Source: Gilliamella sp. wkB171
Lineage (GTDB): Bacteria > Pseudomonadota > Gammaproteobacteria > Enterobacterales > Orbaceae
NCBI RefSeq assembly: GCF_001693755.1
Contig: NZ_LYST01000043.1
Span: 1 to 64,000, forward strand
Reading direction: 5' to 3'
Length of the DNA: 64,000 nt
The notes beneath the pieces are model-generated. The model searched no databases. It had not been told where the DNA came from and saw nothing but the letters and a program-made list of their open reading frames with translations. A program made the position numbers and the translations under genes. Below, in pieces: positions 15,529-56,791 of this stretch; position 1 is the stretch's first letter; each line of letters starts with the position of its first letter.

Positions 15529-16071
15529 TCATTTATTTTGATGTTCAATAGAATGCCTTATTAAACAACGTTTTAATTCGTTCAAAAACTGATTATCTGT
15601 ATAGCTCGGATATTTTGTTATTGGACGATTGATTAAATAAGCTATTTGATGTGATGTTAATCGGAATATTTGGGACAAATTTAATAAATTAAAATGAGTT
15701 TGCGATATAATATCCTCTGATATTAAAGCAATATTTTGTTGTTTAATTTTATTCTCTACTAATGATATTTGCTCAACCCGCCATTTTGGATAAGCTTGGG
15801 TATCAAACTCGCCATTCAATTGATATCCCCAATCTGTTTTATTGACGTGAGGAAAATAAGTTAAAACACTTTTTATTGGTAAACCACAACTAATCACATA
15901 CTGATTATCTAGCTTTTTTATTTGTTTAACTTGTAATTTTAAAGAACGCTTAAGCAATTGAGTAACAATGTAAGCTGACTGATTATAAAGTCTACAAAAT
16001 AAACCACTATCTTTAATAAAGCACACGGCTGAACAATTTTCTGTTAAATTGATTTTCTCTTGAGTATTCAT
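15529..16071 (-). CDS. Unknown protein of 180 residues
   Basis: I do not recognise a family. There is no signal peptide or membrane segment, and the sequence looks globular and cytoplasmic, with several aromatic residues and a C-terminal helical stretch ending LKRCLIRHS. It is about 105 bp upstream of proC on the same strand and may be co-transcribed. The Shine-Dalgarno is weak. Codon and base use match the neighbours. It is most likely a real gene given its length and complete open frame. Confidence 0.6.
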   Translation of the reverse strand: MNTQEKINLTENCSAVCFIKDSGLFCRLYNQSAYIVTQLLKRSLKLQVKQIKKLDNQYVISCGLPIKSVLTYFPHVNKTDWGYQLNGEFDTQAYPKWRVEQISLVENKIKQQNIALISEDIISQTHFNLLNLSQIFRLTSHQIAYLINRPITKYPSYTDNQFLNELKRCLIRHSIEHQNK

Positions 16072-16140
16072 TTGATATCTAATTTTAATAATTCTTTGGA
16101 ATTTTAAAACAGCTAATGACTAAAATTTATTCAATTTTTT

Positions 16141-16173
16141 AGAACCTTACCGCGCTTTGCGCAATAAGGTTCT
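16141..16173. repeat. REP-like hairpin A
   Basis: AGAACCTTA / TAAGGTTCT arms, a 2-nt mismatch, an inner GCGC/GCGC stem and a TTT loop. It lies between the unknown gene and the 3' end of adhesin-like gene 1, and has the same design as hairpin B. Confidence 0.55.
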
Positions 16174-16200
16174 TATGCCATGTTAACCTTTTTTCAACTT

Positions 16201-16225
16201 GCTTGGTGTGCTTCGCACTACAAGC
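16201..16225. repeat. REP-like hairpin B
   Basis: GCTTG / CAAGC arms, a 2-nt mismatch, an inner GTGC/GCAC stem and a TTC loop. Together with hairpin A it fills the region after adhesin-like gene 1. No T tract follows on either strand. Confidence 0.5.
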
Positions 16226-16303
16226 ATAAGATTAATGTTCTATTATGTTTTATATCTAAATCCGTTAGCTGCTGAAATAAATAATATTAGTGCTCTAGTG
16301 TTA

Positions 16304-17812
16304 TTAGTAATTGTTCACACAAGCAGCTCTAATATTAATATAGTTTTGAGGAAATTTATGGCTAATACCAGAACCACCACCAACTAAACTCGGATCAACA
16401 TAAAATGGATTACCATCACTGTAAATATCACTTGTCCAGTAGCCATGCCAATAACGCCAGTCGCTAGCAGCATATTCGCCTTCATCAGTATAAGTCATAC
16501 CCCATTCACTAAATATTCCACCAACCCATTTTGCTGAGCTATCTTTATAACTAATTCTTCTTTGGTAATCTAAATGAGTGAAATTAGGTAAACCACCATT
16601 CCAATCATTACCATTGCCATTGGTATAATCGCGAACACTTGGTATTCGATAATATAATAAACCATTACAGAAGCTTTTGGTTTTTTCATAGTCACTATCA
16701 ACTTGCCCTAATCCACTAGCACCACTTGGATCAGCAATAAACCAACGGGATATCTTAAATGAATACAGCAGTAGTTTCTTTTTTTTATCCCCATAAATTT
16801 TAAATGTAGTTGGAGAAAACCACTTATTTGCGGAATCTTTATTTGGTCCAATAAGTTTAACATCAATCATATTACTACTTCGAGCCGTTAATTGTAATGT
16901 TACACCAGACCCTTCTACCGGTCTAACCACTGAACCATTGAGTATAATGGCCGCTTGTGCAGAAATCCCCTCAACCATTAATGAAAAATTCAAACCATTT
17001 GACCCCGTCGTTGGAAAATTAGACTCGGGTTGATTTACATCCTGTAATTTAAAACCCTTGCTTGGATCCCATTGTTCTGAAGGACCGGCAAAAAAACCAC
17101 TACCATTGATAACACTAGGTTTAGCATAACACGTTTTCGGAACTTTATAATGTAGATAGTAACTATGACTTCCACCACTGAATATACTTATACTTGGTAT
17201 GCCAAAAGTCGTTACTAACGATCCACTATCGGCACTCATCGTCATTTTATACGGTGATTGACACGCATTTAACTGATAATTTGGATTTGACTTGACATAA
17301 TTTGTCACATCATCACCATTAGCTGTTTCCCACTTTACCTTTAGATTCCCCGTTATCGTTAAAAGTTTATCTCCATCCTCATCGCGCCAATAATTGTTTT
17401 TCACAATTACATTCGCTAAAGTAGTTGAAGGGTAACTAGTAAAGGGCATACTTGTTTTTATATCATTAAATGTGACAGAGCCGCCATCCATTAAAATAGG
17501 ATTAGTCATACTTGAATTATCTTCGGATGCCAATATCTTCTTCTTATTTGGTAAGGTCAACGATAATAGTGGCAAAACCGTATCCGACTCGGTCTTTCCG
17601 TCATCAAAACTTAAATAAGGACCTTTTCCATTTATTACCTGCGCTGTTTGTGTTGTTAGACCATGAGCCGTATTTATCAATACCGTATCAACCAACAACA
17701 ATATTAGTAAACAAGAAGGTAGAGGACTGGCTATTACTAATTTTATTAACCATCTACTTAATAATGATTGTTTTGCATAAAACAATGTCACTTTAGTAAG
17801 CTGATGCGGCAA
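16304..17812 (-). CDS. Putative phase-variable adhesin 1 (body frame, out of frame with its start as sequenced)
   Basis: The body encodes a hydrophobic signal/anchor segment (about residues 19-50, ending NTAHGL), a conserved N-terminal module (QTAQVINGKGPYLSFDDGKT, then WRDEDGDKLLTITGN), and a C-terminal Cys-Trp-rich domain with EWG and YWT motifs ending in a cysteine, resembling a C-type-lectin fold. It recalls DUF823 'adhesion domain' proteins of enterobacteria, from memory. The only start in this frame is a TTG without Shine-Dalgarno. The frame is open upstream to a heptamer tract; a good Shine-Dalgarno/ATG lies beyond it at 18012 but is out of frame with 8 repeats. With 6 or 9 repeats the product would be 564 or 571 residues. 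A paralogue lies at 55224-56705. Confidence 0.8.
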   Translation of the reverse strand: MPHQLTKVTLFYAKQSLLSRWLIKLVIASPLPSCLLILLLVDTVLINTAHGLTTQTAQVINGKGPYLSFDDGKTESDTVLPLLSLTLPNKKKILASEDNSSMTNPILMDGGSVTFNDIKTSMPFTSYPSTTLANVIVKNNYWRDEDGDKLLTITGNLKVKWETANGDDVTNYVKSNPNYQLNACQSPYKMTMSADSGSLVTTFGIPSISIFSGGSHSYYLHYKVPKTCYAKPSVINGSGFFAGPSEQWDPSKGFKLQDVNQPESNFPTTGSNGLNFSLMVEGISAQAAIILNGSVVRPVEGSGVTLQLTARSSNMIDVKLIGPNKDSANKWFSPTTFKIYGDKKKKLLLYSFKISRWFIADPSGASGLGQVDSDYEKTKSFCNGLLYYRIPSVRDYTNGNGNDWNGGLPNFTHLDYQRRISYKDSSAKWVGGIFSEWGMTYTDEGEYAASDWRYWHGYWTSDIYSDGNPFYVDPSLVGGGSGISHKFPQNYINIRAACVNNY

Positions 17813-18012
17813 TAAAACCGAAATAGTTAGTAGATAGATAGAAAAAGAAATTATAAAAGGAACTGGTGATAAGTTCGGTAATAAAGATTGAAAAGTTTGC
17901 TGACCGCTAACGACTTGATGCGCTAATAAATCCCGATGCCCGATGCCCGATGCCCGATGCCCGATGCCCGATGCCCGATGCCCGATGCCCGATTAAGACC
18001 ACATTTTAACAT
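17813..18012 (-). other. 5' start segment of adhesin 1 with heptamer phase switch
   Basis: Reading leftward from ATG at 18012-18010: seven codons (MLKCGLN), then the GGGCATC tract, then 122 bp without a stop in the body frame. With 8 repeats translation runs through RASGIGH twice plus RASGI and ends at TAG just past the tract, giving 29 residues. With 9 repeats the reading continues as RDLLAHQVV into the body at 17812. The Shine-Dalgarno AGGGAG is at 18023-18028, 10 nt before the ATG. Confidence 0.75.
17932..17994 (-). repeat. Heptanucleotide tandem repeat, 8 copies
   Basis: Eight perfect copies of GATGCCC (plus strand; GGGCATC in the gene's sense) at 17935-17990, with partial units at both ends. 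A 7-nt unit changes the reading frame with each gain or loss. The same tract, also 8 copies, lies at 56714-56769. Confidence 0.97.
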
Positions 18013-18268
18013 ATTTTTGCCACTCCCTGTAGCGATTTACTTAATTTTTTCATAAAATTCAATAGGTTGATTTTTAATTATTAAAACTCAATTAGATTAA
18101 GTAATCAAGTACTCGCAAATGATACCAGATATTATTAAATATATCATAATATAATTGCATCATTTTCCTAGCAAATAATGTAAAAATTATAATAATGATC
18201 AACCCAATAAAACGATAACTATTTTAGTCTTAAATTGGTAACAATCTATTTTTTATGATTTTTTTAAA
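18013..18268 (-). promoter_or_regulatory. Promoter region of adhesin 1
   Basis: AT-rich region between the adhesin start and the convergently placed end of the pilT-like gene. The part nearest the ATG, including the Shine-Dalgarno, resembles the region upstream of adhesin 2. No confident -35/-10 pair was identified. Confidence 0.45.
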
Positions 18269-19216
18269 CTATTCAAACTGCTTGGGCATAATTTGCATAC
18301 CATATTGCTGTCCAGTTTGCATTAAAGAATAAATTTGTTTAACTTTGCCTTCTTTAATTAAATTACTTACTGCGGGGGTATTGATTAACACTTCAAATAA
18401 AGCTTTACGTCCATTTTCGGTGGTGACTAGTTTCTGACTTATTATTGCCTTCAAACTATGAGATAATTGAGTACGAATAAAATCTTGTGAACTGTCTTCA
18501 AATACATCAATAATACGATTAATAGTCTCAATAGCAGAATTTGTATGCAACGTAGCAAAAACTAAATGCCCTGTTTCAGCTACTGTTAATGCGGTTTGGA
18601 TAGCTTTTTTGTTACGTAATTCCCCAAGCAATATTATGTCAGGATCTTGTCTTAAAAGGCTATCAACAGTCTGCTCTAAATTTGTTAACTCCCTTTGTTG
18701 AATTAATGATTTTTGATTATGATAAATAAATTCAATCGGATCTTCTAAGGTTAATATGTGCTTTGATTGATTAAAATTAATGTGATTAATTAATGATGCT
18801 AGTGTGGTTGACTTACCACTCCCTGTTGAACCGGTAACTAAAATAATGCCACTTTCATAATTGATAAGTTGTTTAAAAATTTCAGGCGCATTTATCTCGG
18901 CAAGAGTTGGAATGTGTTGTTTAATTATGCGAAAAACAGCTGAGATTCCTCGATACTGATAAAAAATATTCACTCTAAATCTGCCTAATTCCTTTACCTG
19001 ATAAGCGAAGTCAATTTGCTTATTTTGGTATAATTGTTGTTTTTGATCGCCAGTTAATAACGATAATAAATCCGCCTCTAAACTTATTGGCGATAACCTG
19101 TGTTCTGATAAAAATTGTAATTGCCCATTAATCCGAATACACACAGCTTCACCACTTGAAAGGTGCAAATCAGAGGCATTTTGCGTTACACTAAGAGCCA
19201 AAAATGAATTTAACAT
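18269..19216 (-). CDS. yggR: PilT-like secretion/pilus ATPase YggR
   Basis: Hexameric P-loop ATPase of the PilT/GspE superfamily. An N-terminal PAS-like region (SDLHLSSGEAVCIRINGQL) is followed by Walker A GSTGSGKSTT, the Asp-box and Walker B region (LLRQDPDIILLGELRN) and the His-box TGHLVFATLHTNSA. At 315 residues it is slightly shorter than PilT (about 345), like E. coli YggR, and is next to yggS as there. No other pilus genes are in the window, so whether it retracts type IV pili is unknown. Only 35 bp separates it from divergent yggS. Confidence 0.88.
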   Translation of the reverse strand: MLNSFLALSVTQNASDLHLSSGEAVCIRINGQLQFLSEHRLSPISLEADLLSLLTGDQKQQLYQNKQIDFAYQVKELGRFRVNIFYQYRGISAVFRIIKQHIPTLAEINAPEIFKQLINYESGIILVTGSTGSGKSTTLASLINHINFNQSKHILTLEDPIEFIYHNQKSLIQQRELTNLEQTVDSLLRQDPDIILLGELRNKKAIQTALTVAETGHLVFATLHTNSAIETINRIIDVFEDSSQDFIRTQLSHSLKAIISQKLVTTENGRKALFEVLINTPAVSNLIKEGKVKQIYSLMQTGQQYGMQIMPKQFE

Positions 19217-55223: not shown

Positions 55224-56705
55224 TCATTCTTTACATAAAACATAATGCATATTGGTATCGACACCCACACCAACATCACCATAGTACAAACCTATTCGAA
55301 AGTGCGCACTGTTACCACCCGATAATGTTCCCCAATAGTCTGCTGTCCAAAACAGCTGATCTAGCCAGTGTGATTTTGGATAGGTATTTTTATCTAAATG
55401 TCCCCATTCACCCAAAATGCTTTCGCCAATAGACCTTGTATAAGCACTATATTGATAAATCCAATTCATTGGCGCAGCACTACGAGGGGAATTAGTTAAT
55501 TCTTTACGAGTTATCAAACTACAAAAATTAGACGCATTCTGCCAATTATATGCAAATTCATAAGGTACAACCCAAATACCTCGTGGATCAAAAGTATAAT
55601 CATACTTTAACAATGGATTGTTTTTTAACGTTGCCCGAACAGTGACAGGTCCAGAAGGCTTATCACTAAGTAGTACGTTGCCTAATTTATCAATCGAGAC
55701 TTTTCCACCAGGATTGTTAGGAACAGAATAGTTATAATCTGTTTGCGCACCAGTTAATATTAGCTGAAACTGTGCACCAGGAAAGCCAGTAGAAGGAAAC
55801 TTATTTGACGATACTGATGGCGCCGCTTTAAAACCCAAATTAGGCACATAATCTGAAGTATAACCACCGCCATTAAGAGGATCTGGTTTTGTGCTGTCGG
55901 GTATATTCCACCAATTATCTGAATCTGAATCAAAGTTAAAATCGCCTTTTTGATTATTAGTTAACCATTGCTTAGCGGGTAGCACAATTGTTGCGTTAGG
56001 TTTGAGATAACATACTTCGCGTTTAGATAAAATATAATAACTGTGGCTTGCCCCCGTAAATTGACCTATATCCGGTATACCATAACGGGTTGCTAAAGCA
56101 CCATCATCGGCACTAAGTGTTAATTTATAGGGAGATTTACACGCATCTAACTCACTATTCGGATTCGATTTCACATAATCGGTCACATCTTCACCATCGT
56201 ACGTTTCCCATTTCACTCTCATAGAACCCGTTATGGTAAAAAGTTTATCTCCATCTGGATCACGCCAATAATTATTTGCTACTATCGCATTGGCTAACGG
56301 CATTGATGGATAATTGTTAAAAGGTAAATGGGTTTTGATATCATTAAAAGTTGTCGGCACTTTTTCTATCACAATGGGCTCAACTACTGATGATTTGTCT
56401 TCCAACGCGCTTATCACCTTATTATCCGGCAACGTTAACGATAAGAGTGGTAATATTGTTGTTGACACTGTCTTTCCATTGTCAAAGGTTAAATAAGGCC
56501 CTGTGCCATTAATTACCTGAGCTGTTTGTGAGTTTAAGCCATACACCTGCTTTATCGATAACGCTGTCAATATTAATAACAAAAAGAGGTTTGATAATCC
56601 TAAATTTATTATGCCCTTTCTGAAACAAATTTTGACAAACGATTGTTTACTTTGATTAATATTTGGAAAATGTAGAAATAAATTTAAAGATGGATTTTTG
56701 AACAA
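55224..56705 (-). CDS. Putative phase-variable adhesin 2 (body frame, out of frame with its start as sequenced)
   Basis: Paralogue of the 16304-17812 gene. Signal/anchor segment near residues 30-54 ending KQVYGL, then the shared module QTAQVINGTGPYLTFDNGKT and YWRDPDGDKLFTITGSM, a divergent middle, and a C-terminal domain with GEWG, FWTADYWG and a final cysteine that resembles a C-type-lectin fold. In-frame initiation would need a TTG with no Shine-Dalgarno. A Shine-Dalgarno/ATG at 56791 lies beyond the 8-copy heptamer tract and is out of frame; 6 or 9 copies would give one protein of 517 or 524 residues. DUF823-like adhesin by memory. Confidence 0.8.
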   Translation of the reverse strand: MFKNPSLNLFLHFPNINQSKQSFVKICFRKGIINLGLSNLFLLLILTALSIKQVYGLNSQTAQVINGTGPYLTFDNGKTVSTTILPLLSLTLPDNKVISALEDKSSVVEPIVIEKVPTTFNDIKTHLPFNNYPSMPLANAIVANNYWRDPDGDKLFTITGSMRVKWETYDGEDVTDYVKSNPNSELDACKSPYKLTLSADDGALATRYGIPDIGQFTGASHSYYILSKREVCYLKPNATIVLPAKQWLTNNQKGDFNFDSDSDNWWNIPDSTKPDPLNGGGYTSDYVPNLGFKAAPSVSSNKFPSTGFPGAQFQLILTGAQTDYNYSVPNNPGGKVSIDKLGNVLLSDKPSGPVTVRATLKNNPLLKYDYTFDPRGIWVVPYEFAYNWQNASNFCSLITRKELTNSPRSAAPMNWIYQYSAYTRSIGESILGEWGHLDKNTYPKSHWLDQLFWTADYWGTLSGGNSAHFRIGLYYGDVGVGVDTNMHYVLCKE

Positions 56706-56791
56706 AAAATTGCGATGCCCGATGCCCGATGCCCGATGCCCGATGCCCGATGCCCGATGCCCGATGCCCGATTAAGACCATATTTTAACAT
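56706..56791 (-). other. 5' start segment of adhesin 2 with heptamer phase switch
   Basis: ATG at 56791-56789, seven codons (MLKYGLN), the GGGCATC tract, then only 8 bp to the TTG at 56705. With 8 repeats the product is 35 residues (two RASGIGH, RASGI, AIFCSKIHL, stop). With 9 repeats the reading becomes three RASGIGH then RNFLFKNPS into the body. The Shine-Dalgarno AAGGAG at 56802-56807 is 10 nt from the ATG, the same spacing as in copy 1. Confidence 0.75.
56713..56772 (-). repeat. Heptanucleotide tandem repeat, 8 copies
   Basis: Eight perfect copies of GATGCCC (plus strand) at 56714-56769, with partial units at both ends. It is identical in unit and copy number to the tract at 17935-17990. 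Confidence 0.97.

Follow-up and report, generated by a model that had tools for sequence, protein, structure and literature searches.

Coding-repeat phase variation is best known from human pathogens, and one family with such repeats, the Opa proteins of Neisseria, consists of beta-barrels. The neuO gene of the E. coli K1 prophage CUS-3 is described as carrying a heptanucleotide AAGACTC tract in its 5' coding region and as giving a full-length product only at unit numbers divisible by three, three units encoding one heptapeptide (PMC3046976, PMC13001214); it is reported to be OFF in 42 of 64 genomes (PMC13001214). The opa genes of Neisseria are described as a surface-protein family whose CTCTT coding repeats, placed 5' in the leader-peptide region, mediate switching by slippage (PMC3960869). 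The ZirT/ZirS system of Salmonella is reported to include an exported protein without a barrel of its own, and zirT and zirS adjoin (PMC2270342).

The gene analyzed here lies in a window of 64,000 nt (the whole stretch of DNA under analysis) from Gilliamella sp. wkB171. Judging from its sequence, this gene is very probably a contingency (phase-variable) locus with a leader ATG and a coding tract, OFF at its present 8 units. On the minus strand, a Shine-Dalgarno motif (AGGGAG, 18028-18023, read from the sequence) stands 10 nt 5' of an ATG at 18012 (18010..18012), and 22 nt lead from this ATG to the first of 8 full GGGCATC copies, an arrangement that an earlier note on this DNA had described and that holds to the base. 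Counted as a perfect period-7 (ATCGGGC) tract, the repeat covers 62 nt (17932..17993, minus strand), or 8.86 copies; it is free of stops in all three frames, three units encode one GHRASGI heptad, and the unit, located in the 5' coding region, is not divisible by three. The frame of ATG 18012 (17923..18012) comprises 29 residues and is terminated by a TAG at 17925-17923 just beyond the tract, the early stop that had been claimed for n = 8. From 17992 onward the body frame stays open until a TAA at 16306-16304 (562 codons plus the stop, 16304..17992), and it takes in the tract, an N-terminal extension, a putative signal peptide and the exported part, as delimited from the frames and from a stop count over 101 loci given below. 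Upstream, it is closed by a TAA at 17995-17993. There is no ATG in its residues 1-161, the first being residue 162 (17509); the earliest other start-like codon is a TTG at 17812, ahead of which no Shine-Dalgarno motif was seen. The note had correctly placed both this TTG and the TAA at the far edge of the tract. At 8 units the offset of the body frame from the ATG frame is 2 modulo 3, and the note's arithmetic, by which only every third copy number brings the ATG into frame with the body, was right. The next ATG, at 18004, meets a TAA after three codons. The choice of ATG 18012 is based on frame analysis and on a shared leader, ATGTTAAAATRTGGTCTTA; of the 9 GGGCATC members of the genome that have a long tract and a leader in view, 8 carry it, and L010 differs. 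No Rfam family was found in 16100-18500, and no plasmid match was found. A chance origin of the tract was also considered and rejected, as perfect tracts of period 4, 5, 7 or 8 reached at most 20 nt in sequences simulated by a first-order Markov model (60 sequences, 64 kb each), against 62 nt in the window.

Under the mechanism proposed, translation from ATG 18012 would read through the heptanucleotide tract, the N-terminal extension and the signal peptide before reaching the exported, invasin-like part. Units of 7 bp would be gained or lost by replication slippage, each unit moving the frame by one, and every third copy number would put the leader ATG and the body in the same frame; at 8 units the frames differ, and the gene would be OFF, a 29-residue peptide being made instead. 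With at least 34 paralogues, 22 of them tract-bearing, cells would differ in the members that they make. In having a 5' coding heptanucleotide tract that would set the frame, the window gene resembles neuO as described. It differs from neuO, a prophage O-acetyltransferase gene whose tract is reported to begin two nt after the start, in that its own tract begins 19 nt from the first base of the ATG; the Gilliamella family also differs in comprising dozens of paralogues, in having the tract ahead of a signal peptide and in using other units. No acetyltransferase model was found among the 16 families listed for 34 aligned members. The closest parallel at the level of a family is opa, for which one pentamer unit is described, whereas tetramers, heptamers and octamers of many sequences occur in Gilliamella. 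The mechanism would be of the known neuO/opa kind, in an unexpected symbiont and spread over a whole family; its more surprising aspects are this spread, the replacement of one repeat unit by another and a class of three-copy tracts that are OFF. Among the matches listed, no report of the Gilliamella family or of its repeats was found in the open-licence literature. Coding-repeat phase variation would here be family-wide, with unit turnover, in an apparent bee gut symbiont. This symbiont can be cultured, and its host can be reared without microbes; if the reading is true, single-strain Gilliamella populations would be mixtures of surface or secreted types.

Comparison across the genus bears on whether the tract is translated. 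The set comprised 34 members from the window's genome, 74 loci found by similarity (in Gilliamella genomes and one 'Orbaceae bacterium' genome), 72 of 80 further 5' ends from genomes of the genus, and L047 and L049. Deduplication by identity over 130 nt around the tract, or over 150 nt for tract-free loci, left 169 members, 101 with a period-4, -7 or -8 tract and 68 without. No signal-peptide motif was recognizable in 8 of the 80 fetched ends or in 9 of another 20, the remaining 11 of which lie outside the counts; a further 8 ends (7 unreadable, 1 without a tract), taken from two other genera of the taxonomic family, were excluded from the claims. In the 101 loci together, the 5,774 body-frame codons between the tract and the signal peptide include no stop (the last 12 signal-peptide codons being omitted from this count), as against 527 and 340 stops in the other two frames. 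The same region holds 29 ATG codons in total, in 29 of the 101 loci, and an in-frame ATG precedes the last 12 signal-peptide codons in 65 of the 68 tract-free members. A post-tract region that is free of stops and poor in ATG, together with the ATGs of the tract-free members, argues that the start normally lies upstream of the tract. Speaking against the phase-variable reading, the N-terminal extension that precedes the signal peptide is of unusual length. Tracts are also concentrated at these 5' ends: a scan for periods 4-10 in the DNA around 74 loci, some of them entered twice, found 48 tracts in 34.7 kb of 5' regions and 39 in the 468.6 kb outside them, and 28 of the 34 different outside tracts precede the family signal-peptide motif and belong to neighbouring members.

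The same counts weigh on an alternative in which TTG 17812 or another non-ATG codon beyond the tract serves as the start, which would leave the tract untranslated and without control of the frame. TTG 17812 does open a frame of 502 codons, and an ATG between tract and signal peptide, as in 29 of the 101 tract loci, would allow such a start; however, the TTG has no Shine-Dalgarno motif, no ATG lies ahead of residue 162, untranslated DNA would not keep one frame clear of stops with 527 and 340 in the other two, and 65 of the 68 tract-free members provide an in-frame ATG. We regard a downstream start as quite unlikely.

That the tract acts instead on transcription, with a sigma-70 promoter overlapping the leader and an RNA start inside the tract, appears highly improbable for the window gene, although many relatives do show a promoter-like arrangement. 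A TTGACA-N16-18-TATAAT match at 10 or more of 12 positions overlaps the Shine-Dalgarno motif and the ATG in 71 of 73 short-tract rows (a count made ahead of the final deduplication; examples are L088, L138 and L157), and in the eight short-tract rows inspected 3-4 nt lie between the end of the -10 element and the tract; 10 of 55 tract-free rows have such a near-consensus match. In the window gene, however, no more than 7 of 12 positions match, and a score of 10 of 12 is attained by only 10 of 28 long-tract rows. Moreover, an RNA begun within the tract would be without the leader ATG, and the promoter hexamers coincide with an SD-like GGA and with leader codons 3-4. A sigma-70 promoter at the window tract finds no support: 16100-18400 contains 12 promoter-like sites, where 10.8 were expected.

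Variation between orthologues further favours phase variation. The earlier note had held that a constant n = 8 in all strains would refute this reading, and the unit number is not constant: L070 (CALYPO010000027.1, a Gilliamella metagenome assembly), an orthologue from a neighbouring lineage that is 95.3% identical over 4752 nt and 92% identical in protein, has a tract of 55 nt, or 7.86 copies against 8.86 in the window, exactly one unit fewer, and is the sole orthologue with a complete tract compared. Its body frame is open, as in the window gene, and its leader ATG is likewise out of frame and OFF; a second ATG ten nt on, without a Shine-Dalgarno motif, is in frame. Within the window's genome, paralogue L014 is an ON copy with the leader of the window gene, so that one leader occurs in ON and OFF copies according to the number of units. 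A decaying pseudogene, permanently disabled by its tract, would fit the out-of-frame leader ATG of both the window gene and L070 but is extremely unlikely, as the body stays open for 562 codons and in the orthologue as well at 92% protein identity, an ON copy of the same leader exists, and the unit number is unequal between orthologues. The note's view of the gene as phase-variable is strengthened by this one-unit difference, by period-4 or -7 tracts at the same site and in mixed frames in 22 of the 34 own-genome members, and by the open, ATG-poor region after the tract. In one genome, three paralogues within about 8 kb (L157, L172 and L176) carry 3.43, 4.43 and 3.43 copies and are OFF, ON and OFF, respectively.

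The window itself contains a second member of the family, whose tract of the GGGCATC unit (56713..56772, minus strand, 8.57 copies) opens onto a body frame of 515 codons plus a stop (55224..56771, minus strand, by frame analysis); its leader ATG at 56791 is likewise out of frame with the body. L081, a relative of this second paralogue with 98.3% identity over 3.8 kb, is on a contig that begins inside the tract. Directly downstream of the window gene, a 180-codon open reading frame (15529-16071) has no Pfam family.

The genome of the window (2.67 Mb, 59 contigs) has GGGCATC x3 at 11 places and AGCC x5 at 5, and reversed-pattern controls gave 0. All 11 and all 5 places are 5' ends of one gene family; 6 of the 11 GGGCATC genes were absent from the 30 matches of a single-protein search (E up to 10) and were assigned by aligned motifs. 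Thirty-four paralogues were examined in this genome, in which a profile search gave 38 matches. A period-4 or period-7 tract follows the start in 22 of the 34, with the units GGGCATC, AGCC, AGCAGGC, AAAACGC or ACACCAG. Among the 17 own-genome tracts of at least 5 copies, 2 are cut off by a contig end before a start is visible, and the other 15 are divided into 4 ON and 11 OFF. L009, L014 and L016, which are 93-95% identical in the 150 nt that follow the tract, carry 12.29, 10.29 and 5.29 copies. L009 and L025 share 92% identity upstream of the tract and 49% downstream, and L009 and L016 share 75% upstream and 95% downstream; the disagreement between the two sides among L009, L025, L012, L014 and L016 is suggestive of an exchange of leaders and bodies near the tract. 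The contigs G000 C22, C35 and C45 and those of L070, L076 and L081 start or stop in a tract or at most about 65 nt from one. Assemblies tend to break at the tracts of this family, and strain comparisons may therefore miss such genes.

Common to the members are a signal peptide whose end lies near ALS, two conserved motifs (I.G..P and D.DGD) and a C-terminal part with EWG and, close to its end, a Cys. In the window gene, the exported part after the putative signal peptide would comprise 452 residues (16307..17662, minus strand), as placed from alignments A1 and A3 with the cleavage site set by eye; A1 has 34 members, 32 from the window's genome and 2 from other genomes, and omits L040 and L041, and A3 omits L112, L114 and L134. 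The window protein matched no Pfam family, a search of NCBIfam gave E 0.06 at best, and no PHROGs family was found for the window gene, the second member reaching E 0.036 at best. Invasin_D4 was weakly detected in 11 of the 34 aligned members (best E 0.00011), the window member not being among them. The first profile (A1) had no match in PDB; later profiles matched one PDB chain, that of invasin 1cwv, at E 0.003 and, for profile A4, at E 0.00033, the last 250 residues (16307..17056, minus strand) being remotely similar to the C-terminal domains of invasin. Any view of the fold, including a candidate Ig-like domain with a lectin-like domain at the C-terminus, comes from such weak sequence profiles. 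The adhesin-like label of the earlier note gains weak support from this similarity and none from Pfam for the window member itself; an adhesive or binding role would be in keeping with it. The family resembles invasin and intimin in this weak C-terminal similarity and differs from them in that no barrel domain was found in the same polypeptide and in an exported part of about 450 residues. We found no PF11924 beta-barrel in any of the 34 aligned members, and the product may, on present alignments, be an exported and weakly invasin-like protein without a barrel of its own.

One intimin-type barrel gene was found in the genome, at C31:5985 (L069 982-3681). As in the ZirT/ZirS system as reported, a barrel-less protein that would be exported thus occurs with one intimin-type barrel gene in the genome, but unlike that system, the barrel gene (C31) is not beside the window gene (C43), and there are at least 34 candidate partners. 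Such a barrel was present in 34 of the 35 genomes of the genus, and G008, which lacks it, is the only genome without family matches; G002, G012, G013 and G048 have the barrel and only 3 family matches each. With a single co-absence and four barrel-bearing genomes with so few matches, a ZirT/ZirS-like export of the family by a single barrel is a lead rather than a result, and we retain it as a candidate pathway. Among 148 genomes sampled from the order, family members were found in 8 (3 genera) that belong to the window's taxonomic family, and one further genome had weak matches, mostly to the C-terminal part.

The state of each tract across the genus was scored for periods 4, 7 and 8 only, keeping the longest tract per locus and taking as the start the last ATG preceded by a Shine-Dalgarno motif within 40 nt before the tract. 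Under this rule, L016 and L070 were scored OFF despite a second ATG in the body frame without a Shine-Dalgarno motif, as were L212 and L123 despite such an in-frame ATG at or in the tract; L022 was scored ON without a Shine-Dalgarno motif, and L011 was scored OFF with this region cut by a contig end. Over all genomes examined, long tracts (at least 5 copies) were ON in 7 cases and OFF in 23, with 4 lacking a start in view. The ON share of 7/30 is compatible with one third (p 0.33), where p-values are indicative, the loci being related and drawn by similarity ranking rather than at random. Tracts of 2.x copies were OFF in 4 cases, with 1 lacking a start, and tracts of 4.x copies were ON in 3 cases and OFF in 1. 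Among 58 tracts of 3.x copies, 57 were OFF and 1 was ON, with many different units (e.g., in L087, L091 and L094). This excess of OFF among three-copy tracts departs from what free slippage would give, which indicates that the tracts of the family do not all behave alike; we infer that the three-copy tracts may be short, slowly changing and resting in one default frame.

In all, 22 repeat units of 4, 7 or 8 bases were found, 16 in short period-7 tracts and 8 in long tracts. When the unit was mapped as a label onto a FastTree phylogeny of 106 exported parts, in which 38 of 102 inner branches are well supported, 32 changes were required, as against 61 with shuffled labels. The repeat units appear clustered on the tree, yet seem to have been replaced many times. 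A broader picture, which we put forward tentatively and with some doubt, is that Gilliamella keeps an arsenal of invasin-like exported proteins in which the tract site is retained and the units are replaced: long tracts would be ON in a roughly random third of cases, the three-copy class would be OFF by default and turned ON by the gain of one unit, few members would be made per cell, and a single intimin-type barrel would export them all. Repeats of other periods also occur in the genus. Two loci of another genome, L238 and L239, outside the counts, carry tracts of the octamer AAACACAA in 10.25 and 4.25 copies, and in L218 a 9-bp repeat of 5.56 copies, whose period keeps the frame, lies ahead of the signal peptide.
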